Source of the DNA: an uncultured Pseudomonadota bacterium
GTDB lineage: Bacteria > Pseudomonadota > Gammaproteobacteria > Steroidobacterales > Steroidobacteraceae
Direction: 5' to 3'
Length of the DNA: 36,079 nucleotides
Assembly (NCBI GenBank): GCA_903839465.1
Contig: CAIMCI010000160.1
Coordinates: forward strand, 1-36,079
Made by a program: the position numbers and the translations under genes. The notes beneath the pieces were generated by a model. It ran no database searches. It saw only the letters and a program-made list of their open reading frames with translations, and was not told where the DNA came from. Positions 703 through 32,175 of this stretch are shown here, one piece after another (the stretch's first letter is position 1; every line of letters starts with the position of its first letter).

Positions 703-1443
703 TCAGTCGCGCGGTCGCTTCAACTCAAGGCGGTCTCCACTTCGGGTTCGCGCGATCCAGCGCCTCGCGCCGCCGATTCGTCGACTGTGGCGTTCGGCGA
801 TCGGCAGCCACGGCAAACCCGCTTCCTTCGCCAGCACGTGCGCGAGGCGCACGACCTTGATGCGGACCGTGTGCGCGAGGAGGTCGTCGAGCAGCGCCTC
901 GTCCATGGCAACGAAGCTCATCGCCCTCGCCCGAGCCGCCGCGGGCTCGACGGTCCGGCCGACATCGCTCAGGTACTCGAGCATCGCGCGCTCGGAACCC
1001 GACACCGCAAACTCGCCGCCCGGACCGAAACGGGTCAGCAGGCCGCGCCCTTCGGGGAGGCCCGCGGAGAAGATCGCGGTCGTCTGCAGGCTGGCCGGAA
1101 ACGCCCCGACAAACCAGGCCGGCAGGCGCGCCGGCTCGCCGGACCACAGGGTGAGCACGCCACCGGGAGGTAGGTCCGGCCAGGCAAGCGCGGCCGCTCC
1201 GCCCACGTGAAATCCCGCAATTCTGGCGGCGAGATAGCCAAGAGCCCCCTCCCGCGTCATCCGGTCACCGGGCAACAGGTAGGCGTCGCGGCCGAGCCGG
1301 GTGAGCCAGCCGTGTCGGGACAGCCAGGCGGGATGCGAGCGTCCGAACCCCGCCTCGTAGAGGGTTCTGGCGCTGATCGGTGCACCACGGGGCAGTTTTG
1401 CGAACACCGCTTTGAATGAAAATCGTGTTTTATTCGGTGTCAT
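703..1443 (-). CDS. AbiEi-type (type IV toxin-antitoxin) antitoxin-like protein, orphan
   Basis: A 246-residue protein matching the AbiEi_3 layout: an N-terminal winged-helix region (about residues 8-60, with ARTLYEAGF then LSRHGWLTRLGRDAYLL), followed by the AbiEi C-terminal region containing HVGGAAALAW near residue 78. In known systems AbiEi represses its own promoter and antagonises the nucleotidyltransferase toxin AbiEii. No AbiEii-like gene is visible here: downstream is rpiA (convergent), and upstream is an AT-rich gap and then a DUF3147 gene on the other strand. It is therefore an orphan antitoxin, a solitary regulator, or a partner encoded elsewhere. The ATG lies in the AT-rich island six bases after a perfect TATAAT, so the mRNA may be leaderless. 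Family assignment is from remembered consensus only. Confidence 0.75.
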   Translation of the reverse strand: MTPNKTRFSFKAVFAKLPRGAPISARTLYEAGFGRSHPAWLSRHGWLTRLGRDAYLLPGDRMTREGALGYLAARIAGFHVGGAAALAWPDLPPGGVLTLWSGEPARLPAWFVGAFPASLQTTAIFSAGLPEGRGLLTRFGPGGEFAVSGSERAMLEYLSDVGRTVEPAAARARAMSFVAMDEALLDDLLAHTVRIKVVRLAHVLAKEAGLPWLPIAERHSRRIGGARRWIARTRSGDRLELKRPRD

Positions 1444-20975: not shown

Positions 20976-21563
20976 CTACTTGCGCCGGGACTTCCACCCT
21001 GGCGACAGGGTGTTGTTCCGTGCCGGCCAGCGCTCATCGAGAGGAGGGAGCAAGCCAATCTTGCCGGTGATGAGTTCCGGCGTGATCGCGTAGACGATGG
21101 TTGCTGCCATTCGTGGAAATGAGCCGACTTCGCGACCCCACGAGTCCGCCGGAGCATACTTGGTCATGAACCTCGTAAAGAAGCCGGCCGCATCGTCCTC
21201 GCCGTCCAGCTGGCGGATCCGCCCGAACATGACGACTGATCGGTACGCGACCGACGTATCGCACTCGATGTTGCCGTAGGGAAACACCTCGCCGGGCTCG
21301 TCAACCTCAAAGCTGACGCGATCGCAATGTTTCACGTTTGCCGCAAAGTGGCCGGGATGGCGGCCGGTGTGCAGGTAGACGACTCCGTCGTGCCAGACAA
21401 ACAGGTTCGGGGCAATGTAGGGGTACCCGTCGGCACCTATCGTCGCCGTGCGCCCACAGAAGGCGCCGACAAGAAACTCGTCGACCTCGCCAACCGTCAT
21501 TACCTTGTCCGCGCGCCGGAGGAGCCCCCGCCGGTCGTCGGACTGCCGGTCGGTACCCGTCAC
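20976..21563 (-). CDS. pyridoxamine 5'-phosphate oxidase-related FMN-binding split-barrel protein (Nim-like)
   Basis: A 195-residue flavin split-barrel protein of the COG3467/NimA type. It has GRTATIGADGYPYIAPNLFVW (first strands), YLHTGRHPGHFAANVKHCD and the VSFEVDEPGEVFP strand. Relatives bind FMN, and some reduce nitro or N-oxygenated compounds. Whether this one makes pyridoxal phosphate is doubtful. The GTG start overlaps the stop of the gamma-lyase gene in GTGA, and an internal ATG at MTVGEVDEF is an alternative. As last gene of the four-gene cassette it probably acts on a product or cofactor of the lyase. This is inference from context. Confidence 0.83.
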   Translation of the reverse strand: MTGTDRQSDDRRGLLRRADKVMTVGEVDEFLVGAFCGRTATIGADGYPYIAPNLFVWHDGVVYLHTGRHPGHFAANVKHCDRVSFEVDEPGEVFPYGNIECDTSVAYRSVVMFGRIRQLDGEDDAAGFFTRFMTKYAPADSWGREVGSFPRMAATIVYAITPELITGKIGLLPPLDERWPARNNTLSPGWKSRRK

Positions 21564-22762
21564 CGGGAAGCTCCGGGGGATGCCGCCTGAAGCGCATTGT
21601 CGAGGTCCGCGATCAGGTCGCTGGGATGCTCAAGCCCGATCGACAGACGTACCAGCCCCTCAGTGATACCCGCCTCGGCTGCCTTCGATGCGCCCACCGA
21701 ACCCGACCACATCGCCCCTGGCAGAGTCGCAAGGGATTCGAACCCGCCAAAACTCACGGCGCGGCTGACAAGACGCATGGCGCCGACGACTGCATGCGCA
21801 CCCCTGGACCCGGTTCCCACTTCGAAGCTCATCAGACCGCCGAAGCCGCCACCCATCTGTCGACGCGCCAGCTCGTGCTGCGCGTGGCTGGCCAATCCCG
21901 GATAGTGGACTCGCGATACCGCCGGATGCCCCTCGAGAAATCGCGCGACTTCCAGCGCCGTCCTGTTCTGCCGCTCCACCCGCAGGGGCAGAGTTCGCAA
22001 CCCACGCAGCAAGAGCCAGGCGGCGAACGGATCCGGCACCGGACCCAGTGCCACGGCCGTGTGCCATACGCGCTCGATGATCTCGCGGCTGCCCAGGACG
22101 ACGCCGGCCATCAGATCGTGGTGCCCGCCCAGGAATTTGGTGGCGCTGTGCACGACGAGATCGATTCCCAGGCTCAGCGGCAGCTGATTGACAGGTGTCG
22201 CTATCGTGCTGTCGCACAGCGTAAGGATGCGACGGCTGCGCGCAAGTTCCGCCACGGCCGCGAGATCGGTGATTGTCAGCAGCGGATTCGCCGGGGTCTC
22301 GACCAGGATGAGCTTTGTCTTCACGGTAACAGCATCGGCAAACGCCTGCGGGCTCGTCTGATCGACGAGAGTCACGTCGACCCCGAACCGCGGCAATATG
22401 GTCGCCAGCAGCTGGGCAGTTCCCATGTAATGCGTGCGCTGGGCGATGACATGATCGCCGCTTCCCACCAGCGTCAGGACCGTCGTGCTTATCGCACCCA
22501 TGCCGCTCGCGGTGAGCAACGCCGCCTCTGCTCCTTCGAGTGCGGCCAGCACCGCCTCGACCCGGCTGAAGGTTGGATTGCCGTCGCGCGTGTAGTTTCG
22601 ATTGTGCCGCGGAGTGTTCGACATCAGCGCGAATTCGTCGTCCGACATGGCCCGAAACGGTGCGGTCTGGTGGATCGGTGGCGCAACGTCCGAGTCGGCA
22701 TCGATGCCGCGATCGGCGTGGGCCACCACGGTGTCGGCATGTACGTCGGTAATGAGGCTCAC
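21560..22762 (-). CDS. PLP-dependent Cys/Met-metabolism family gamma-lyase
   Basis: A 400-residue fold-type I PLP enzyme of the cystathionine gamma-lyase/synthase, methionine gamma-lyase and canavanine gamma-lyase group. Visible: NYTRDGNPTFSRVEAVLAAL (phosphate and cofactor contacts from the neighbouring subunit), ASGMGAIST (PLP phosphate loop), THYMGT with the active-site tyrosine, LVETPANPLL, the cofactor Asp in LCDSTIATP, and HSATKFLGGH with the Schiff-base Lys at about 209. The active-site tyrosine is followed by Met-Gly rather than the Gly-Cys of methionine gamma-lyase or the Gly-Gly of cystathionine enzymes, so substrate assignment by homology is uncertain. The start is GTG 22762 with AAGGA eight bases upstream. 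It sits 48 bases after the B3/B4 gene. Canavanine gamma-lyase is a contextual guess. Confidence 0.88.
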   Translation of the reverse strand: MSLITDVHADTVVAHADRGIDADSDVAPPIHQTAPFRAMSDDEFALMSNTPRHNRNYTRDGNPTFSRVEAVLAALEGAEAALLTASGMGAISTTVLTLVGSGDHVIAQRTHYMGTAQLLATILPRFGVDVTLVDQTSPQAFADAVTVKTKLILVETPANPLLTITDLAAVAELARSRRILTLCDSTIATPVNQLPLSLGIDLVVHSATKFLGGHHDLMAGVVLGSREIIERVWHTAVALGPVPDPFAAWLLLRGLRTLPLRVERQNRTALEVARFLEGHPAVSRVHYPGLASHAQHELARRQMGGGFGGLMSFEVGTGSRGAHAVVGAMRLVSRAVSFGGFESLATLPGAMWSGSVGASKAAEAGITEGLVRLSIGLEHPSDLIADLDNALQAASPGASR

Positions 22763-22810
22763 AGGTGCATTCCTTGTTCGGGCCGGCGGGCGGGGATCGT
22801 CGCCGTGCGA

Positions 22811-23527
22811 TTACGCGATTGCCGCGGTGCCGGTGCGGTCGACAAGGCGCACCGACACCTGCGCCGTGGGGCTGACTTGCTGCAGAACGTCCTTCAGCAC
22901 GATGGCGGCTTCGACGGCGGCGGCGACGGGCATCGGCTCGAGGCGCTCAAGCACGAACCAGGCAAGCCGCGTCTCGGTCGTTATGCGCGTCCGGACGCCC
23001 TGGCGCCAATTCCAGCGGCGACAGGTAACACCCCGGTCATCGGCCCAGACCACCTCACCGGCCGGAACCGGCTCGGTGACCAGTTCACCGTCCTTCATCG
23101 TGTCGAAGTGTTCCGAGCCGTCGGCACGCCGGAGGCGTGGAACACCGACGTAGGCGGCGATGTCTTCGCCGCCGACGGGAATCACATGGCTGACGCTGAT
23201 GGCGTTGTACAGGTCGACCACGGCATTGATGCCGGGCAGCCGGCCGTCCGAGCCTAGCCGCTGCAGCAATGCTTCAGCGGAATTGAGCGTCCGCTGCGGC
23301 TTGGCGCCGAATGAGCGGTAGGTTGACCGCCATGCCTCCAGGTGCGCCTCGAACCAGGGCACCCGAACAGGAAGCTTCACCGCCTGTTCGACATATCGAC
23401 AGACCGCGGGGTGAGCAACTGCGTTTGTGATGCCGTCGGCGATCACGCTGACTGCGCAATAGTCCGGCCGCAGCGCAAGCACGTCGGCATTGATGACCGG
23501 CGTGAACTCGGGGTGGATCTGCGTCAC
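22811..23527 (-). CDS. standalone B3/B4 domain protein (COG3382), candidate tRNA-editing deacylase
   Basis: A 238-residue protein related to the B3/B4 editing domain of phenylalanyl-tRNA synthetase beta subunit, but freestanding. Diagnostic parts are TYRSFGAKPQRTLNSAEALL, LPGINAVVDLYNAISVSHV, IPVGGEDIAAY and VVWADDRGVTCRRWNW. A member of this family, CtdA, is known to hydrolyse canavanyl-tRNA(Arg) and so protect proteins from canavanine. Others are uncharacterised. The start is GTG 23527, overlapping the stop of the Xre-cupin gene in GTGA. Together with the downstream PLP gamma-lyase it suggests defence against a toxic amino-acid analogue. Canavanine is the best-precedented candidate, not shown here. 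Confidence 0.85.
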   Translation of the reverse strand: MTQIHPEFTPVINADVLALRPDYCAVSVIADGITNAVAHPAVCRYVEQAVKLPVRVPWFEAHLEAWRSTYRSFGAKPQRTLNSAEALLQRLGSDGRLPGINAVVDLYNAISVSHVIPVGGEDIAAYVGVPRLRRADGSEHFDTMKDGELVTEPVPAGEVVWADDRGVTCRRWNWRQGVRTRITTETRLAWFVLERLEPMPVAAAVEAAIVLKDVLQQVSPTAQVSVRLVDRTGTAAIA

Positions 23528-24105
23528 CCGACCGGCTCCAGCACGACCATCTGAAACTCACACGCCACTTTGGCCAGATTCGCGTAGCGATGCGGCGCGT
23601 CCGCCAAGAATCGCGCGGTGCATCCGGAGCGGATGATTGCCGTTTCACCGGCGCAGCCCACCGTCAGCGTGCCCCGCCGCACCGAGAGGAATTCGGTCGT
23701 GCCCCCGGGATGCGCGGCACCGTCGAACTGCTCGCCGGGTGACAGGCGCCACCGCCAGATTTCGGCGGCGAGATCGCCGAGGCGCACGGTGTCGATCAAC
23801 GTCGCGCAACTGCCCGCGCCCGTCTCCCACAGGATGCGTCCATCGGCATCCGGACTGACGACGAAGCGTGTTTTGGCGTCGTTCTGGGCAAGGAGCTCGC
23901 CGATCACGACGCCGAACGCGTTGGCCAGCCTGCAGAGAATGGCGATTGACGGATTGGTACGTCCCTGCTCGATCTCGACGACCATGCCTTTGCTGATCCC
24001 GGAGCGCTTCGCCAGCGCGTCCAAGGTCAGGAGGCGTGCCTTTCGCAAGCGGCCGCAATTGGCGGCCACCGTCCGCAAAATCGCTTCTTCCTGATTCATG
24101 GTCAT
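23524..24105 (-). CDS. Xre-cupin transcriptional regulator
   Basis: A 193-residue regulator with an N-terminal lambda-repressor-type helix-turn-helix (about residues 14-70, LDALAKRSGISKGMVVEIEQGRT) and a C-terminal cupin sensor barrel (about 110-190, LSPGEQFDGAAHPGGTTEFL). Proteins of this type sense small metabolites, often amino acids or their breakdown products. It heads the four-gene operon and overlaps the next gene by four bases, so it is the likely local regulator. ATG 24105 (MTMNQEE) was chosen; ATG 24099 is close behind. A TATAAT at 24135-24130 would give a leader of about 20 bases. An upstream open extension is AT-rich leader and unlikely to be coding. Confidence 0.88.
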   Translation of the reverse strand: MTMNQEEAILRTVAANCGRLRKARLLTLDALAKRSGISKGMVVEIEQGRTNPSIAILCRLANAFGVVIGELLAQNDAKTRFVVSPDADGRILWETGAGSCATLIDTVRLGDLAAEIWRWRLSPGEQFDGAAHPGGTTEFLSVRRGTLTVGCAGETAIIRSGCTARFLADAPHRYANLAKVACEFQMVVLEPVG

Positions 24106-24196
24106 TATATCGACTGCTTGGTTTTTTATATTATAGTAACGCCCGCGATCCCAATGGAAGCCATGCTGCGGCGGTGCAACAATCAACCCGACCCTT
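24106..24196. promoter_or_regulatory. AT-rich divergent promoter region of the analogue-defence cassette
   Basis: The 91-base gap between the Xre-cupin gene (-) and the EamA-type gene (+) begins with an AT-rich stretch holding TATAAT on the minus strand (24135-24130) and TATTAT/TATAGT on the plus strand around 24129-24137, overlapping each other. One regulator bound here could control both directions. No clear operator palindrome was found, and no guanidine-riboswitch-like hairpins with ACGR loops were seen. Confidence 0.45.
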
Positions 24197-24622
24197 ATGC
24201 CCATCGGCCTCATCATCGCCTCCCAGGTCGGCTACCAGCTCGCGCAGCGGGCAATGCCCGCCGGCGCCAATCCCTTCGCGGCCATCGCCGTCGCTTACGT
24301 GCTCGGGATCGCTGCCTGCGTGGCCCTGGCGCCGTTGGTCGGCCGGCCGATCGGAATCGCCGACTCCGGACTGGTCAGGCACTGGCCCATCTGGGCGTTG
24401 GCCGCATCGGTCGTCGGCATCGAGCTTGGGTATCTGCTGGCCTACTGCGCCGGCTGGACGCTCGCGACGACCACCGGTGTCGGCTATTCGGCAACGATCG
24501 TTCTGGTCGCCCTCATCGGCGCAGCGTATTTCTCGGAGGCCATATCAGCCCGTCGCGCCGCCGGGCTTGTCCTGGCGGTCGGTGCGGTTTGGCTGTTGAT
24601 CGCCCCGCCGCGTTCGACCTGA
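24197..24622 (+). CDS. half-size EamA/DMT superfamily transporter
   Basis: A 141-residue membrane protein with four to five hydrophobic segments (about 2-20, 26-48, 64-86, 90-110 and 118-137). The last part, GAAYFSEAISARRAAGLVLAVGAVWLLI, matches the end of an EamA repeat (E, then G..L...G). EamA carriers usually have two such repeats in one chain, so this would work as a dimer, like the related small multidrug/guanidinium exporters of the same superfamily. It is divergent from the Xre-cupin operon across a 91-base promoter region, which suggests shared control and a role in exporting the toxic compound or its product (inference). The ATG lacks a Shine-Dalgarno sequence. Confidence 0.78.
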   Translation: MPIGLIIASQVGYQLAQRAMPAGANPFAAIAVAYVLGIAACVALAPLVGRPIGIADSGLVRHWPIWALAASVVGIELGYLLAYCAGWTLATTTGVGYSATIVLVALIGAAYFSEAISARRAAGLVLAVGAVWLLIAPPRST

Positions 24623-24773: not shown

Positions 24774-27128
24774 TCAGGCGGCCGCCGGCAGTACCAGCGT
24801 AAACGTCGAGCCGACCCCGACCTTGCTGTGCACGGCCACCCGCCCGCCGTGCTTGGCGGCGACGGCAGAGACGAACGCGAGACCGAGCCCGGCACCGCCG
24901 GGGTCAGCCTCGCCGTCGTGCAGGCCGCGCGCGTAGCGGCGAAACAGGGCCTCCTGACCGGACGCCGGGATGCCGGGTCCCTGGTCGGTCACGGTAAGCC
25001 ACAGCTCGGGCCCGCGCGGGTCCAGGGCCACGGCCACGACGGTGTTGTCGGCCGCGAACTTGACCGCGTTGCCGAGCAGGTTGCCAATGGCCCGAGCGAG
25101 CAGCGAGCGGTCACCGACGACCTCGACCGGCAGCCGAGGCGTAGCCCAGTCGATGACGATGCGGCGCGCCGCGGCAGCGGCCCAGACCTCGTCGACGGCG
25201 TCCTGCACGGCGTCATGGATGGCAAACGTCCGAAAGACAAGCGGGTCGGCCGCCTCGGCACGGGCAAGCGCAAGAAAACCGTCGACCAGCGACAGGGTCC
25301 GCTGCGCGAGGATGTCGAGGCGCTCGGCCAGTACGGCGGGCGGCAGGGCGCGCGCGGGATCGCGCTGCAGCCGGGCGAGGCCCGCGAGCGAGGCCGCCGG
25401 CCCTTTCATGTCGTGCGACAGAAAGCCCATCACCTCGTCGCGTTCGCGCTGCAACTGGCGCAGCTCCGTGATGTCGGCGAGATCGAGGATCGTGCCGAGG
25501 CGCACGCCGCCCCGCCCGTCGAACGGCACGACGCGCACCAGGAAGTCGCGCTCAAGGCGCGTCGAGCGGTATTCGAGCGTGCACGGTGCCCGCGCCGCAA
25601 GCGCCGCGAAGTCCAGCGGCCGGCCGGTGAGCTCGGTCAGGAGCGCGGCGTCCACCGCCCGCCCCTCCAGCGGTCGGTCGCCGAACACGCCGAGCACGCT
25701 CGCCGCCTCCGGATTGGCGAGCACGATGCGCCCTGCGAGGTCGACCACGACGGTGGCATCCGGCAGGCTGCGCACCGTGTCGGCGAACAGCCGGCGCACG
25801 TCGCGCAGGTGCTCGGCGGCCTCGCGCACGACGTCGATCTGGCGCTGGAACGGATCGAGGCGCGTGTCCCGCGCGCGTGGATCCGGCGCCGGTCGCGGCA
25901 GCGGTTCGTCCTTGAACGTGGCGAACTCGGCCTCGAGAAACGCCTGCGCCGCCTCGAGGCGGCGCCAGCTCCACAGCGGGTAGAGCAGGACGAGCGCACA
26001 GAGGGCAGCCGTCGGCGGCCACCAGTAACCGACCTCGCGCAGGAGGACGAGCGCGGCCCCGGCGGTCAGCACCACGAGCGCACCGATCAGCAGCAGCGAT
26101 TGGCGCGGCCGCAGCAGCAGGAAGCCGGCGAAGGCGGCGAGCACGGGTATGAGGTCGAGCACGAACTCGGCGGCCGGCGATGCACGGCGGATCGCCCGGC
26201 CGTGCCTCAGCGCCGAGGCAACGTTGGCCGTGATCTCGACGCCCGGCATCGCCACGCCGTAGGCCGAGCGCGGCGTCGGGTAGGCGTCGGGCAGGCCAAG
26301 CCCGGTCAGACCGACGAGCACGACCTTGTCGCGGAAGGTGCTCGCGGGTGCCCAGCCGTTCAGTGCGTCGATGAAACTGACGTGCGGCATGGAACCGGCC
26401 GGGCCGGCGAAGGGGATGCGAAAGCGGTAGTCGCGCACCCAGGCGCCGCTGCGCTGCTCGGGGTACGGGTTGCGCTCGCCCGACAGCCGCGTGCCCGGGT
26501 CGTCGCCGGCCGCCGCGAGCAGCGCGACCGCCAGGTGATCGCGACTGGCCCGTCCGGGACCGGCCTTCAGGTAGACGCTGCGCACGATCCCGTCGCCGTC
26601 GATCTCGAGTTCGGCGTGGCCGAGGCCGGCGGCCGCGGCGGCGAGGCGCGGGATCGGCAGGCTTTCGCTGAGCGCACCCTCGTCACCGGGCTCCGGCGCC
26701 ACGGGCAGGACCACGGGCAGTCCGGCCGTCATGGCCGCGGCCAGGCGCTCATCGTCGTCGCCGTCCCGCTCCGGCTCGGTGAACAGGAAGTCGAGCGCAA
26801 CCGCGCGCGCGCCCGAGGCGCGCAGCCGGTCGAGGAGCGCCGCGTGCACCGACCGGCGCCAGGGCCAGCGACCGATCGCCTTCAGCGACGGCTCGTCGAT
26901 GCCGACGATCACGACATCGCCGCTGACCGGACCGGAAGCGAGCGCGGCATCGTAGGCGCCAAGGTTCGCCCGCCAGAGCCAGTCGCCGCGCACGGCACCC
27001 GCGAGGAGCAGCACGCTCACGGCCAGCAGCCACAGCCACTGGCGGAGCACGGGCGAGCGTCGTCTCGCTGGCGACTCCGTCAGAAGAATGACAGCACCGC
27101 GGCCAGCGACACGACGAAGCCGATCCAC
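24774..27128 (-). CDS. CHASE2-PAS sensor histidine kinase
   Basis: A 784-residue membrane sensor kinase. One N-terminal membrane segment (about 30-45) precedes a periplasmic CHASE2 domain (about 50-320, VVIVGIDEPSLKAIGRWPW and KVVLVGLTGLG). Three further membrane helices follow (about 325-400), then a PAS region (LPDATVVVDLAGRIVLANPEA), the phospho-acceptor box MGFLSHDMKGP (His572), the N-box NLLGNAVKFA, G1 DQGPGIP and G2 GGAGLGLAF. It is catalytically complete. ATG 27128 overlaps the end of the FecR gene by 49 bases. A GTG about 26 codons in is an alternative. Its partner is presumably the OmpR-type regulator at the head of the same three-gene operon. Confidence 0.93.
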   Translation of the reverse strand: MDRLRRVAGRGAVILLTESPARRRSPVLRQWLWLLAVSVLLLAGAVRGDWLWRANLGAYDAALASGPVSGDVVIVGIDEPSLKAIGRWPWRRSVHAALLDRLRASGARAVALDFLFTEPERDGDDDERLAAAMTAGLPVVLPVAPEPGDEGALSESLPIPRLAAAAAGLGHAELEIDGDGIVRSVYLKAGPGRASRDHLAVALLAAAGDDPGTRLSGERNPYPEQRSGAWVRDYRFRIPFAGPAGSMPHVSFIDALNGWAPASTFRDKVVLVGLTGLGLPDAYPTPRSAYGVAMPGVEITANVASALRHGRAIRRASPAAEFVLDLIPVLAAFAGFLLLRPRQSLLLIGALVVLTAGAALVLLREVGYWWPPTAALCALVLLYPLWSWRRLEAAQAFLEAEFATFKDEPLPRPAPDPRARDTRLDPFQRQIDVVREAAEHLRDVRRLFADTVRSLPDATVVVDLAGRIVLANPEAASVLGVFGDRPLEGRAVDAALLTELTGRPLDFAALAARAPCTLEYRSTRLERDFLVRVVPFDGRGGVRLGTILDLADITELRQLQRERDEVMGFLSHDMKGPAASLAGLARLQRDPARALPPAVLAERLDILAQRTLSLVDGFLALARAEAADPLVFRTFAIHDAVQDAVDEVWAAAAARRIVIDWATPRLPVEVVGDRSLLARAIGNLLGNAVKFAADNTVVAVALDPRGPELWLTVTDQGPGIPASGQEALFRRYARGLHDGEADPGGAGLGLAFVSAVAAKHGGRVAVHSKVGVGSTFTLVLPAAA

Positions 27129-28705
27129 GGCGAGCGCGGCGCCTGCAACGGCACTACCGGCCCCGGCGGCGTCTCGTAGCCGTCGCTGTCGATGCCGCGC
27201 ACCCGCGCGTAGTAGCGCCCGCCAAACAGCGAGCCTGTGTTCCAGACGGGCTCGGCCACCGTCGCGGCGCGGACCGGCCGCGTGAAGTCCCGGTCGCGCG
27301 CAAGCTCCACCCGGTAACGGGCGGCGCCGGTTGGCTGCCAGGCGATGGTCGACGTCTCGCGCCGCACGGCCCGGACCTCGGCCACCGGCGGCGGACGACG
27401 GACGGTGAAGCGGCGCGTGGCGCCCGGCGCGCCGAGATCACCGGCCGAATTCTCCGCAGCCACCCGCCAGGAATAGGTGCCGGCCTCCAGGTCACCGACA
27501 TCGAGTTCGGGCCGCTCGACCCGCCGGCGCAGCAGCGGCTCCTCGAACGCCTCGTCACGGGCGACGACCACCTCGTAGGCCACCGCGTCCGCGACGGCCG
27601 CAAAACGCAGGCCGGCGCTGCGACCGGCGACATTGGCATCCGCCGGCGGCTCGAGCGGCGCGGGCGCCGCCGGGGCGCGGCGCACGGTGAACTCGCGGAT
27701 CGCGTCCGGGCCCTCGAGGTCCCTGGCCGTGATCGAGCGCGCCTTCAGCCAGTAGCGCCCGTCGGCGAGCGCCGTGAGGGTGCCGCCGGGTCCGCTGACG
27801 ACGTCATCGCGCAGAACCGTATAGAACGCCTCGTCGTCGGCGAGCTGCAGGCGGTAGCGTGCGGCTCCAGGCACCGCCGCGAAGGCGACGGCCACGTCGC
27901 CGCTCGCGCTGCGGGCCGGCAGCGCCCCGAGATCGGGGGCCGGCGGCAGCGGTACCGGCGCGGCGGGCGGCGCGTCCCTATCGACCCGCGTGCCGAAGCC
28001 CGCGGGCACCGCCACCGTCGCGCCGGCGCCGTCGACCCCGACGGTGCCCTCGAGGGTCTCGGTCCGCGCATCGGCGTCGGCCGCATCGAACGCGGCACGA
28101 AAACGCGTGCCGCGCACGGCACTGACCGCCACGGGCGTGCGGATCTCGAAGCGTCCCACGTCATGCTGGGGCTGGACCTTCGTCTCGGCGCGGCCGGCCG
28201 TCAGGCGAAAGCCGACGTCGTGGGCATTGAGGCCGTCGATGCGCTGCATCCGCTCGACGGCGAGGCGGCTGTCGCGCTGCACGGTCACGATCGAGCCGTC
28301 CGGCATCGCGATCGTCGCCGAGCCGTTGCTGCCTGTCTCGACGACACCGCCCGCACCGAGCCGCCCGCCCTTGACCAGCGGCGCGCCGTTCAGCCGCGCC
28401 TCGCCGCCCACGCTCAGCACCTCGGCCTGCTCGGGCGACAGGCGCAGCCAGCGATAGGGAATGTTCAGCAGCGAGCCGGTCGGGATCTGCCGCGGCTTCG
28501 CGACGTGGTTCAGCGTCTGCAGGTCGACCCAGCGGCGCGGCTCGATGAGGACCTTCGCGGACAGGCCGATCAGCGTGTCGCCGGCCCGCGTGTGGTACGG
28601 GTAGAGTTCGCCGTCGGCGGGCTCGGCGCCGTGCGCGACGCCAAGGACCACGAACACGCCGGCAATCATCGGCGCCGCGCGGCACGGCCCGCCGCGGACG
28701 GTCAC
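27080..28705 (-). CDS. LysM-FecR domain periplasmic protein
   Basis: A 541-residue exported protein. The signal peptide (to about residue 27, ending AHGAEP) is followed by a LysM-like module (YPYHTRAGDTLIGLSAKVL, then IPTGSLLNIPYRWL) for peptidoglycan contact. A FecR domain follows (about 95-215, GSATIAMPDGSIVTVQRDS and IRTPVAVSAVRGTRFRA), then three fibronectin-III-like repeats marked by YRLQLADDEAFYTVL, YEVVVARDEAFEEPLL and YRVELARDRDFTRPVR. The C-terminal hydrophobic stretch WIGFVVSLAAVLSFF may anchor it. GTG 28705 overlaps the response-regulator stop in GTGA. Internal ATG 28669 would give a signal peptide with no positive start. It probably senses envelope state for the CHASE2 kinase. Confidence 0.9.
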   Translation of the reverse strand: MTVRGGPCRAAPMIAGVFVVLGVAHGAEPADGELYPYHTRAGDTLIGLSAKVLIEPRRWVDLQTLNHVAKPRQIPTGSLLNIPYRWLRLSPEQAEVLSVGGEARLNGAPLVKGGRLGAGGVVETGSNGSATIAMPDGSIVTVQRDSRLAVERMQRIDGLNAHDVGFRLTAGRAETKVQPQHDVGRFEIRTPVAVSAVRGTRFRAAFDAADADARTETLEGTVGVDGAGATVAVPAGFGTRVDRDAPPAAPVPLPPAPDLGALPARSASGDVAVAFAAVPGAARYRLQLADDEAFYTVLRDDVVSGPGGTLTALADGRYWLKARSITARDLEGPDAIREFTVRRAPAAPAPLEPPADANVAGRSAGLRFAAVADAVAYEVVVARDEAFEEPLLRRRVERPELDVGDLEAGTYSWRVAAENSAGDLGAPGATRRFTVRRPPPVAEVRAVRRETSTIAWQPTGAARYRVELARDRDFTRPVRAATVAEPVWNTGSLFGGRYYARVRGIDSDGYETPPGPVVPLQAPRSPWIGFVVSLAAVLSFF

Positions 28706-29400
28706 GTCACCTCACCGTTGACCGCCTCGAGACGGTAGCCGTAGCCGTAGACCGGCGTCAGCCGCAGGCCGCTGGCGGCGGACAGCCCGAGCGCCGCGCG
28801 CAGCCGGCTGATGTGGGTATCGACCGTGCGGGTCGTGGTGCTGTCACCGCGACCCCAGACGGCCTCGAGGATGTGGGCGCGCGACAGCACCTTGCCGAGG
28901 TTGCGGCACAGGAGTACGGCGACGTCGAACTCGCGGCGCGTCAGCGGGATCGGCACGCCGTCGCGCTCGATGCGCTGGCGCGTGACGTCCACCGTGAAGG
29001 GCCCGGCCGTGAAGCGCTCTTCCTCGGCCGGCGCGGCGACCGCCCGCCGGCCGAGGGCGCGCACCCGCGACAGGAGCTCGCGCTCGCGCGGCGGCTTGGT
29101 CATGTAATCGTCGGCCCCGGCCTCGAGCGCCGCCACGACGTCCGCCTCGGCATCGCGCTGGGTCAGAAACAGCACCGGCGTCCGGCCCCGGAGCCAGGGC
29201 CTGGCGGTCGCCAGCACCTCGAGCCCGGACAGGTCCGGCAGGCCCCAGTCGAGCACCAGCAGGTCGTAGCTTTGCACGGCGAGACTGGCGAGCAGCACGC
29301 GGCCGCGACTGAAGACGTGGACCTGATGGCCGTCGCTGCTCAGCAGTGACTCGAGTCCCGCCGCCTGCCCCACGTCGTCTTCCAGAATGGCGATACGCAT
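28702..29400 (-). CDS. OmpR/PhoB-family response regulator
   Basis: A 232-residue response regulator. The receiver domain has acidic residues EDD (7-9), phospho-acceptor Asp51 in LVLDWGLPDLSG and Lys about 101 in MTKPPR. A winged-helix DNA-binding domain follows (about 132-228, PIPLTRREFDVAVLLCRN, RTVDTHISRLRAAL and the wing YGYGYRLE). It is the first gene of the operon with the FecR protein and CHASE2 kinase. A TATACT at 29414-29409 ends eight bases before the ATG, so the transcript is nearly leaderless. The frame stays open upstream of ATG 29400 but has no protein-like content there. Confidence 0.95.
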   Translation of the reverse strand: MRIAILEDDVGQAAGLESLLSSDGHQVHVFSRGRVLLASLAVQSYDLLVLDWGLPDLSGLEVLATARPWLRGRTPVLFLTQRDAEADVVAALEAGADDYMTKPPRERELLSRVRALGRRAVAAPAEEERFTAGPFTVDVTRQRIERDGVPIPLTRREFDVAVLLCRNLGKVLSRAHILEAVWGRGDSTTTRTVDTHISRLRAALGLSAASGLRLTPVYGYGYRLEAVNGEVT

Positions 29401-29408
29401 ACTGGACA

Positions 29409-29414
29409 AGTATA
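29409..29414 (-). promoter_or_regulatory. -10 hexamer of the two-component operon
   Basis: Minus-strand TATACT eight bases upstream of the response-regulator ATG at 29400. No good -35 is visible; the spacer region is GC-rich with an imperfect palindrome of CCGGC repeats. Confidence 0.4.
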
Positions 29415-29479
29415 TCGGGCGCGCCGGCCGGCGTTCCGGCCGCCGGCAGGCGTCACAATAATTAACAGTTGCGGCGGCG

Positions 29480-30712
29480 TTGTTCACAGTGCCGAACGAC
29501 CGACCGGCTACCGTGCTGGCACGCACCCTGCGCAACCACCTGCTCGCCGGCCATGAACGAACCGATGCAACTCGGCCAGGACGTCCGGGTTCCCGTCGCG
29601 GATCCGGCCGCCGCCCGCACCGTGGCGCCGCCCGGGCGCTTTCGGACCTTGCCACCACGGCGGCCACGGTCGCCGCCGCGGAGCTCGTGCGCCTGTGCCT
29701 CGCCGAGCCGGCGGGCGTCTGGTGGGCGGGGGTCGCCGCGCATCTGCCGCGGGCGGACGACGCCGCGCTCGGCGCGCTGCTCGATCGCGGCGACCTCGCG
29801 CCGGTCACGGAGCTCGGCGACGATGCGCGCGTCGCCGGTCTTGGCGGCCGCTACGGCACGCTTGCGCAGCTGCCGGTCGTCGTCGGCGGCACGGTGCTCG
29901 GCGCACTGAGCGCCTTCTATCCCCTGGGCGTCCGGGTCGGCGCGGACCGCCTCCAGGCGCTCGCCGCGATTGCACGCCTGGCGGGTGGCACGGCGGAACG
30001 TCTCGCCGCCGAGCACGAGGTGAGCCGGCGGCACGCCGAGCACCGGCGTCTGGCCGCGGCGGCTGCCGCCGGCGAAGCCGAACGCGGCCGGCGGCTCGCC
30101 CGTGAACTGCATGAAGGCCTCGCCAACCAGCTCACCGGCACGGCGCTTCTGGTCCAGTCACTGTCCCGGCGGGTCGCGGCGCTGGGTCCCGACCTCCAGC
30201 AGGACGTCCTGCACGTCAACCGGCAGCTGCACGCGGCGCTTGCCGCGACGCGGGAACTCGCGACCGGCAGCCTGCCCTACGTGCTCGCCGCGCACGGGCT
30301 GGTCGATGGCCTGAAGATCGCGCTGCGCCGCCTCGAGCATCGGCCCGGCAGCCGCATTGCGCTGATCGCCAGTCCGCACGCCGGCCAGGGCCTGTCGCCG
30401 GCACGGGCGCTGTGCCTGCTCGAAATCGCACTACACCTGATCGATATTGCAAGGCCTGCACAGGGCGCCGGCCGCCTCACCGTCCGCCTGCGCGATGAGG
30501 GCGGTTGCCGGACCCGGCTGTCGGTCAGCGGCGAGCGGCCGTGGTTCGGTGCCGGCGCGTCCACCGACACGATGCCGCTGTGGCGGGAGGTCCGCTACCA
30601 CGCCCGGCGTGCCGCCGCCGATGTACGACCCTTCGGCGACACACATCCGCAGTGCCGCTGCCGGGTCGACGTCGTGCTCGAAGAGCCCGTTCGCCGTGCG
30701 CCCCGGGCTTAG
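29480..30712 (+). CDS. degenerate NarX-like histidine kinase (GAF-like + HisKA_3, no ATPase motifs), N-terminus possibly frameshifted
   Basis: A 410-residue frame from TTG 29480. The first third after residue 55 resembles a GAF-type sensor ([20 protein letters not shown]). Then comes the dimerisation box of the NarL-partner kinases, [17 protein letters not shown], with a candidate phospho-His. The ATPase part is recognisable only in outline: the N-box is [14 protein letters not shown] without its Asn, and no DxGxG box exists, so it should not bind ATP. It may be a phosphotransfer or scaffold partner of the divergent two-component operon. From 29553 to about 29640 another frame ([13 protein letters not shown]...) has the GC-rich third positions of real coding, while this frame does not. 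A one-base deletion near 29620-29640 is therefore suspected. The 3' end overlaps tldD by four bases tail to tail. Confidence 0.62.
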
Positions 30713-32175
30713 CCCGTGCCGCCGACGGTCAGCGCGTCGACCTTCATGGTCGGCTGGCCCACGCCGACCGGCACGGTCTGGCCTTCCTTGCCGCAGATGC
30801 CGATCCCGGCATCGAGCTTGAGATCGTTGCCGAGCATGGAGACGCGGGTCAGTACCTCGGGCCCGGAACCAATCAGCGAGGCGCCTTTGACCGGTCGCGT
30901 CACCCGCCCGTCCTCGATCAGGTACGCCTCGGACGCCGAGAAGACGAACTTGCCGCTCGTCGTGTCGACCTGCCCACCGCCGAAGTTCACCGCGTAGAGC
31001 CCGCGCTTGACCGAGCGGATGATCTCCTCGGGATCGTGCGGACCCGGGCGCATGTAGGTATTGGTCATGCGCGGCATCGTCGCGTGCGAGAAGGATTCGC
31101 GCCGCCCGTTGCCGGTCGGCTGCGCGCCCATCAGCCTGGCGTTCAGCAGATCCTGCATGTAGCCGACGAGCCTGCCGTTCTCGATCAGCGTCGTGCACTG
31201 CGTGGGCGTGCCCTCGTCGTCTATGTTGAGCGAGCCGCGACGCCGCGCCAGCGTGCCGTCGTCGACCACGGTGCAGAGCGCCGAGGCGACCTGGTCGCCC
31301 ATCCGGCCACTGAACGCCGATACGCCCTTGCGGTTGAAGTCGCCCTCCAGCGGATGGCCGACCGCCTCGTGCAGCATCACGCCGGGCCAGCCCGCGCCGA
31401 GCACGACCGGCATGGTGCCGGCCGGTGCGGGTGTCGCCTCGAGATTCACCGAGGCGGCGTGGATGGCTTCGCGCGGAATCGCATCGGTCGCCGGATCCGC
31501 GACGAGTTCGCTGAGCGAGAAGCGGCCACCGCGCCCGGCATAGCCCTGCTCGCGACGGCCTCCCGACTCGAGGATCACGCTGACGTTCATGCGCACCAGC
31601 GGCCGGACGTCGGCCGCGTAGAGCCCGTCGGAATTGACGACGAGGACGATCTCGTGCGAGGCCGTGAGGCTCGCCATGACCTCGCGCACGCGCGGGTCCA
31701 GCGCCCGTGTCTGGCGGTCGAGCCGCTCGAGGAAGGCCACCTTGTCGGCGTCGGCGAGCGTGTCGATCGGGTCGGCCGGCAGGTACAGGCCCCGCGCGGG
31801 GCTGACCCGGAACGGCTGTGCGGTGCCGCTGCCGCCACTGGCGACGATGGCCCGGGCGGCACCGGCCGCCTGCAGCAGCGCCTCGAGCGACAGGTCGTCG
31901 GTATAGGCGAGGCCGGCGCGCTCGCCGGCAATGGCGCGCACGCCGACACCGCGGTCGATGCTGTGGCTCGCCTCCTTGACGATGCCGTCCTCGAGCGACC
32001 ACGACTCGTCGCGCGACCACTGGAAGTAGAGCTCCGCCAGATCCAGCCGGTGGGTGTTCATGGCCGCGAGCACGCGGCCGAGCGCGCCGGCATCGAGGCC
32101 GGTCGGGTCGAGCAGGGCACGGACGGCCAGCGCGTCGGCGTCCGCGGAGAGATCGGCGTCGGAGAGGGCAACCAT
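30709..32175 (-). CDS. tldD: metalloprotease TldD
   Basis: The 488-residue TldD, catalytic subunit of the TldD/TldE (PmbA) protease. The zinc motif HEAVGH lies in [19 protein letters not shown], with further family stretches [41 protein letters not shown] and the C-terminal [18 protein letters not shown] that supplies a metal ligand region. The length is normal. It follows the nitrilase gene on the minus strand after 75 bases, in the widespread order yhdP-nitrilase-tldD. Its partner pmbA is about 13.5 kb away in this window. Confidence 0.97.

Follow-up and report, generated by a model that had tools for sequence, protein, structure and literature searches.

A conserved HisKA_3-type pseudokinase as a candidate ATP-independent accessory of a BiofilmReg-type two-component system

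We examined a degenerate histidine kinase encoded in a 36,079-nucleotide stretch of DNA from an uncultured member of the Steroidobacteraceae (the window; its genome is designated G000, and the other two genomes of the genus G001 and G002). Genes in the window are ordered pmbA, purE, purK, a gene for an AAA/FHA protein, an extra cassette, the genes for a CHASE2 kinase, a FecR protein and a response regulator, then the pseudokinase gene and tldD. As the sequence-only reading of this DNA had it, the pseudokinase faces a two-component operon, with the response regulator, FecR and CHASE2 kinase genes on the opposite strand. The features of the locus are as follows.

24774-27128, minus strand: CHASE2-PAS-HisKA-HATPase_c kinase (HATPase_c E 1.3e-22; HisKA below cut-off)
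27080-28705, minus strand: LysM-FecR protein (LysM match weak, E 0.28, below cut-off)
28702-29400, minus strand: OmpR-type response regulator (best NCBIfam model CreB, below its cut-off)
29401-29552, no strand: divergent intergenic region, common to the pseudokinase and response regulator genes (DNA alignment with G002)
29553-30712, plus strand: probable extent of the pseudokinase gene (the ATG at 29553 is conserved; body read in the frame of 29480)
29633-30049, plus strand: N-terminal GAF-like region, residues ~52-190 (without a Pfam match here; the G030 relative matches GAF)
30062-30271, plus strand: HisKA_3-type DHp domain (Pfam, G002 alignment)
30110-30112, plus strand: phosphoacceptor His211 (codon position, alignment)
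30125-30127, plus strand: Asn216 at H+5 (alignment of HisKA_3 rows)
30272-30685, plus strand: degenerate CA domain, predicted GHKL fold (lacks the N-box Asn, DxGxG and GxGL; the VraS CA domain is the best solved match)
30709-32175, minus strand: tldD (convergent with the pseudokinase gene, 4-base overlap, as in G002)

The regulator, LysM-FecR and CHASE2-PAS kinase genes lie on one strand and have the order and domains of the BiofilmReg operon described in Burkholderia contaminans, where interruption of the regulator gene is reported to have abolished biofilm formation (PMC5192318). By analogy, the operon may control biofilm in the window organism. The HisKA match of the CHASE2 kinase scores 15.8 bits against a cut-off of 26.9, and its best NCBIfam model, PhoR, is also below cut-off. 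BiofilmReg response regulators are described as mostly of the CreB subfamily, and the usual fourth gene in Burkholderia, encoding a DUF4136 protein, lies inside the operon and is not divergent from it as the pseudokinase gene is; the term HisKA_3 is absent from the main text of that paper (PMC5192318).

The window contains an open reading frame of 410 amino acids at 29480-30712 (+). Long open reading frames are cheap at its GC content of about 75%, as a 944-amino-acid plus-strand frame that crosses tldD and its neighbour illustrates, so length alone proves no gene. The evidence for a real gene, as judged from sequence comparison, is an orthologue in G002 together with codon-position conservation. 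The orthologue (406 amino acids, contig CAITAM010000501.1) is 44% identical over residues 50-408, and nucleotide identity between the two genes is 0.58, 0.62 and 0.41 at codon positions 1, 2 and 3. It too is divergent from a response regulator gene and convergent with tldD, with an identical 4-base overlap. Its HisKA_3 match, at 17.7 bits, is below cut-off. A scan of public genome contigs with the pseudokinase alone gave no match, and one with the alignment gave the G002 contig as the only match.

The start at 29480 given in the sequence-only reading is probably wrong, and is unsupported for the first ~50 residues. We doubt it because the conserved ATG, at 29553, where the DNA alignment places the G002 start, is out of frame with the 29480-30712 frame, and because codon-position GC switches frames, favouring the frame of 29553 to ~29600 and that of 29480 from ~29613. 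The alignment with the orthologue supports the pseudokinase body from about 29627, and the N-terminal residues show no significant likeness to those of the orthologue in either frame (28 and 22, each against a shuffle mean of 25). The frame discontinuity near 29600-29613 in the assembly may reflect an assembly error, a real lesion or a downstream start. Within the divergent intergenic region, short stretches are conserved with G002, TTGTTCACA among them; a search of the region found no sigma-70 consensus promoter.

A search of G001 for the pseudokinase gave no match. There, the AAA/FHA gene, purK and purE come straight after tldD (the genes are identified by resemblance to those of the window). 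The CHASE2 kinase gene of G002 is divided between two contig ends, and the contig that carries its C-terminal part continues into the AAA/FHA gene. Within the genus, then, the pseudokinase, regulator, FecR and CHASE2 kinase genes are there or missing as one module between tldD and the AAA/FHA gene. The two G002 kinase pieces (C501:1-1105 and C549:4668-6392) overlap in the query and differ slightly in sequence. The extra cassette in the window (20976-24622), which encodes a PNPOx-like protein, a Cys/Met PLP enzyme, a B3/4 protein, an XRE-cupin regulator and an EamA-like protein, lies between the AAA/FHA and CHASE2 kinase genes and is missing at that place in G001 and G002. Elsewhere in the window, 703-1443 (-) encodes an AbiEi-type antitoxin-like regulator (AbiEi_3 plus an N-terminal domain).

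Analysis of the protein confirmed that a HisKA_3-type box is retained. Pfam HisKA_3 (PF07730) matches residues 204-262 with E 2.8e-6 and 28.2 bits, against a cut-off of 24, and includes the predicted phosphoacceptor His211. In a scan of the whole of Pfam-A up to E 1, the only other match was a 12-bit DUF7462, and HATPase_c was absent. The first DHp helix is the best conserved part of the protein (27 of 42 residues identical to G002, 64%); the second is poorly conserved (9 of 28, 32%), and the last CA segment is 33% identical. We judged the ATP motifs by alignment with seven intact HisKA_3 kinases from genomes of the same family. The claimed loss of the N-box Asn and glycine-rich boxes held in this alignment: the N-box Asn column is Ile, the DDGxG columns read GERPW, and both Gly columns of GxGL are changed, to Met and Leu. 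The helix after GxGL is still recognisable (VRYHARR against MRYRAR). The orthologue in G002 lacks the same motifs. The DxxxQ phosphatase motif reads ExxxN, with Asn216 at H+5. By its sequence, then, the pseudokinase is a HisKA_3 protein that has retained its His and lost its ATP motifs and the phosphatase Gln.

We also ran the structure prediction of the C-terminal part that had been proposed for this protein. The full-length AlphaFold model has a mean pLDDT of 59 and was used for the C-terminal half alone. A core model of residues 195-410, made with one orthologue, reaches a pLDDT of about 80 over positions 101-210 of 216; its first 80 residues, the DHp helices, are at 52-65, and we draw no DHp geometry from them. 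The top VIA-align match of the C-terminal domain is the CA domain of VraS (Z 15.4, 133 residues, 3.0 A), and DosS and DesK both score Z 14.1; we take all three to be HisKA_3-type kinases. Second in the list, at Z 14.6, is 4r3a, which is presumably a kinase of another type. Given this match and the near-ties (rows within 1 count as tied), the list points to a GHKL kinase fold and not to the HisKA_3 group specifically. RetS is among the top matches, and DivL (4q20) follows at Z 13.3; ChpT and Spo0B are not among the best 50 rows, an absence that is no evidence. A PDB sequence search with the pseudokinase, and one with a profile of four rows (this protein and the three relatives described below), gave no match. 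The CA half is thus predicted, from sequence and model, to keep a kinase-type GHKL fold in which the nucleotide site is lost.

To place the protein among its relatives, we scanned 217 genomes of the family for the FecR gene, scoring up to six candidates per genome, which makes the count a lower bound. The gene was found in at least seven: G000, G002, G226, G030, G012, G137 and G069. The four genomes with a degenerate HisKA_3 protein (G000, G002, G226 and G030) are all among these carriers. In G226, which belongs to another genus, the degenerate protein has no GAF match and faces the regulator of the same operon; in G030, the gene for a GAF-HisKA_3 protein whose C-terminal domain is degenerate is located away from the operon. 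The N-box Asn position is occupied by Ile, Ile, Leu and Gln in the four proteins. Conservation of the His in relatives, on which the sequence-only reading had set weight, was borne out in all four, and each also keeps the acidic residue at H+1. At H+5, Gln is found in 63 of the 70 aligned HisKA_3 rows and Asn in four, which are the same four proteins; of the remaining rows, two have G or A and one, L003, is misregistered by the pattern (its H-box is HDGLGQ). The CA folds of the G226 and G030 proteins are assumed, on sequence, to be like that of the window protein.

The other three carriers, G012, G137 and G069, have HisKA_3 matches in which the N-box Asn is present where covered (one G137 match ends before the N-box), and none resembles the pseudokinase; one G069 protein (L163) has no clear DxGxG. 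A 256-amino-acid HisKA_3 protein in G012 (C1:140797-141246 (-), L161/L230) keeps the N-box Asn and has DDSAA in place of DxGxG, and is perhaps another partly degenerate kinase. We looked for a profile match beside the operon in G012, G030, G137 and G069 and found none, so that four of the seven family carriers are without a degenerate HisKA_3 neighbour. In G030 the gene divergent from the operon encodes a YidB-like protein, and in G137 it encodes a GGDEF-EAL protein. The latter (L114:2002-3696 (+), EAL E 5.9e-45) faces the regulator, which fits a link to biofilm or c-di-GMP.

Class-wide, a FecR match was found in 31 of 340 genomes, the window's own included. A six-frame profile search of 32 regions upstream of these matches, five of them shorter than 1,500 bases and 15 with a recognised regulator, returned no degenerate HisKA_3 neighbour; the genes of G226 and G002, which served as positive controls and are themselves rows of the profile used, were both recovered. 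In the sampled genomes the association is confined to this family, in three of seven carriers by adjacency and four of seven by presence. We rejected a P value for co-occurrence (four of four pseudokinase genomes among 7 operon genomes of 217) as a formal test, because two of the four pseudokinase genomes come from the genus of the window, G226 was noticed partly through both matches lying on one contig, degeneracy was checked only at loci that the searches returned, and scoring six to eight candidates per genome makes both counts lower bounds.

Six of 57 aligned rows fail all three ATP patterns: those of the four proteins, that of L005 and that of a truncated G002 copy. Some N-boxes that look intact on inspection, such as that of L057, also escape the pattern. 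L005 is a second degenerate GAF-HisKA_3 protein in the window's genome (G000 C90, L005:1297-2583 (-)), in which the H-box HEGIAQ and DDG are kept and the N-box Asn and GxGL are lost. A GAF protein in G018 (C106, L151:449-1630 (+)) has a degenerate HisKA_3-like core, HKGLAAE, without a Pfam HisKA_3 match; the FecR scan found no FecR operon gene in that genome. These two proteins suggest that ATP-motif losses are recurrent in this kinase group. Small GAF-HisKA_3-HATPase_c kinases of the same family, such as that of G226 C79, are similar to the pseudokinase in length and layout, and are perhaps the ancestral type; unlike the pseudokinase, the G226 C79 kinase has an intact N-box, DDGxG and DxxxQ.

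Do the four degenerate proteins descend from one ancestor? Asn at H+5 in all four, and a shared position in two of the three lineages, point to common descent. Motif loss is uneven, however: the N-box Glu, lost in G000 and G002, is still there in G030 and G226, and G030 retains the first D-G of DxGxG. Leave-one-out profiles recover G000 and G002 only, at 122 and 134 bits, where rows of other genes reach no more than 75 and 88; when left out, G030 and G226 are not in the ten best rows, that is, they fall among ordinary kinases. A tree likewise joins only G000 and G002 (99% SH-aLRT), and has long branches and no resolution in the rest. These sequence comparisons support common descent for the G000-G002 pair and not beyond it.

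Our preferred reading, to which we give a probability of roughly 0.4, is that this conserved pseudokinase is an ATP-independent accessory of the facing BiofilmReg-type system, acting by phosphotransfer or docking. The protein would be a HisKA_3-derived pseudo-histidine kinase that does not autophosphorylate from ATP and that dimerises via its DHp helices. The GAF-like sensory N-terminal region would govern the conformation that the DHp/CA core adopts, and the core would exchange phosphoryl groups between receiver domains via His211, as ChpT, Spo0B and PhyT do; as an alternative output, it might dock or sequester the regulator. Dimerisation, the target, phosphotransfer or docking, and the biofilm link are the parts that we infer. 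A phosphotransfer node was among the roles first suggested for the protein, and is the one that we prefer, alongside ATP-independent docking.

In favour of an accessory role, a degenerate HisKA_3 protein faces the same operon in a second genus (G226), the gene and the operon behave as one module within the window's genus, all four genomes with a degenerate protein are FecR carriers, and DHp helix 1 is better conserved than the last CA segment. HisKA_3 kinases normally partner NarL-type regulators. DesK-DesR, for example, is described as a pair of this kind (PMC5231405). One objection to the accessory reading is therefore that the facing regulator is OmpR-type and not NarL-type; others are that DHp helix 2 is so poorly conserved, that the G030 gene is not beside the operon, that four of seven family carriers and the 32 class-wide upstream regions gave no such neighbour, that the ATP motifs are unevenly lost, and that one further degenerate GAF protein belongs to a genome (G018) in which the scan found no FecR gene.

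The main rival, though unlikely, is that the pseudokinase works as a decoy or heterodimer partner, pairing with and tuning an active HisKA_3 kinase encoded elsewhere. The retained DHp domain would allow this, G000 has other HisKA_3 kinases (at least seven matches, the pseudokinase included), RetS is among the top fold matches, and FasB/FasC and RetS-GacS heterodimers are reported as precedents (PMC12675982). It is weakened by G030, in which the only HisKA_3 match at the thresholds used was the genome's own degenerate protein (7 of 7, 8 of 14 and 8 of 12 candidates scored in three scans). Moreover, the closest kinase in the window's own genome is just 30% identical over the core, and the adjoining kinase looks HisKA-type. 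The same two points, the facing kinase's type and the lack of a second match in G030, weaken the dominant-negative role that the sequence-only reading had offered as an option.

Next in probability, and doubtful, is a phospho-state sensor resembling DivL of Caulobacter, in which the dead core would bind phosphorylated regulator, the N-terminal region or CA domain would relay the signal and the His would go unused. DivL is described as having neither kinase nor phosphatase activity and as keeping its fold in a dead kinase core (PMC4211667), and a GHKL fold without ATP motifs is what is predicted here; DivL itself is in the fold list. However, DivL, which is reported to bind DivK~P, has Tyr in place of the His (PMC4211667), whereas the His is kept in all four proteins here, and no output domain follows the core.

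Lower again, and improbable, is that the gene is a decaying relic of a kinase, now without function and drifting. The protein evolves fast: its G000 and G002 copies share 44% identity, compared with 86% in TldD and 82% in the regulator. The gene is missing from G001, the window's copy has the frame discontinuity near its start, and the branches of the tree are long. The sequence-only reading had held that intact ATPase motifs in relatives would indicate simple decay, and here the evidence divides: distant relatives such as the G226 C79 kinase have them, and the nearest orthologue does not. Fresh decay is unlikely because that orthologue shares the losses and because dN/dS comes to about 0.5 (dN 0.60, dS 1.16, the latter saturated), a ratio equal to that of the FecR neighbour (0.41/0.79). 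Codon positions 1 and 2 are better conserved than position 3, the bodies in G000 and G002 contain no stop codon, and the His and the predicted CA fold are jointly kept.

The H+5 Gln of HisKA_3 kinases (Gln193 in DesK) is reported as key to phosphatase activity, and the His as nonessential for that of NarX (PMC5231405, PMC3510030). That the pseudokinase is a phosphatase of the facing regulator, another option first proposed for it, is accordingly very improbable: its gene adjoins the regulator gene and the acidic H+1 residue is there in all four proteins, but the catalytic Gln is Asn in four of four and the His, dispensable for HisKA_3 phosphatases, is the residue kept. We favour phosphotransfer or docking over phosphatase activity because the His is kept in four of four, the Gln in none of four and the ATP site is lost.

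A broader form of the accessory reading is speculative and unlikely to hold in full. It would see here a lineage-specific upgrade of BiofilmReg, in which a HisKA_3 kinase became a module that serves an OmpR-type regulator by phosphotransfer or docking, independently of ATP and outside the usual HisKA_3-NarL pairing. The change from Gln to Asn would mean that the phosphoryl group is passed on and not hydrolysed, and the arrangement would have originated or persisted on two or more occasions within a single gammaproteobacterial family, each known case being in a genome that has the operon.

Pfam families exist for both ChpT and Spo0B, and neither matches the pseudokinase in the scan of whole Pfam-A to E 1. 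ChpT of Caulobacter and Spo0B of Bacillus, both dimeric histidine phosphotransferases, are described as having, like the pseudokinase, a DHp hairpin whose His can be phosphorylated; the ATPase-like domain of ChpT is degenerate, does not bind nucleotide and is structurally most like that of DesK, a HisKA_3 kinase (PMC3433190). Both work in phosphorelays that include an intermediate receiver, and no such receiver was seen encoded beside the pseudokinase. PhyT of Sphingomonas melonis is a phosphotransferase whose presumed origin is a histidine kinase; it is encoded at the locus of its regulator, and is reported both to transfer phosphoryl groups to that regulator and to sequester it (PMC5898713). 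PhyT is membrane-bound and serves the general stress response with SdrG and PhyR (PMC5898713). The neighbours of the pseudokinase gene are a response regulator gene and tldD. Further dead kinases, RocA among them, are described in the literature. In the literature that we searched, which leaves most subscription journals outside it, we found no description of a HisKA_3 pseudokinase, of a pseudokinase beside BiofilmReg, or of a phosphotransferase or dead kinase built on HisKA_3. Phosphotransferases derived from histidine kinases and dead kinases are represented by few systems, Spo0B, ChpT, PhyT and DivL, and the proteins of G000, G002, G226 and G030 offer a natural comparison between what is kept (the His and probably the fold) and what is lost (the ATP site and the phosphatase Gln). 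Our preferred reading predicts phosphotransfer to, or docking on, the BiofilmReg regulator without phosphatase activity; if true, the pseudokinase would be an accessory component added to an operon with a reported role in Burkholderia biofilm.
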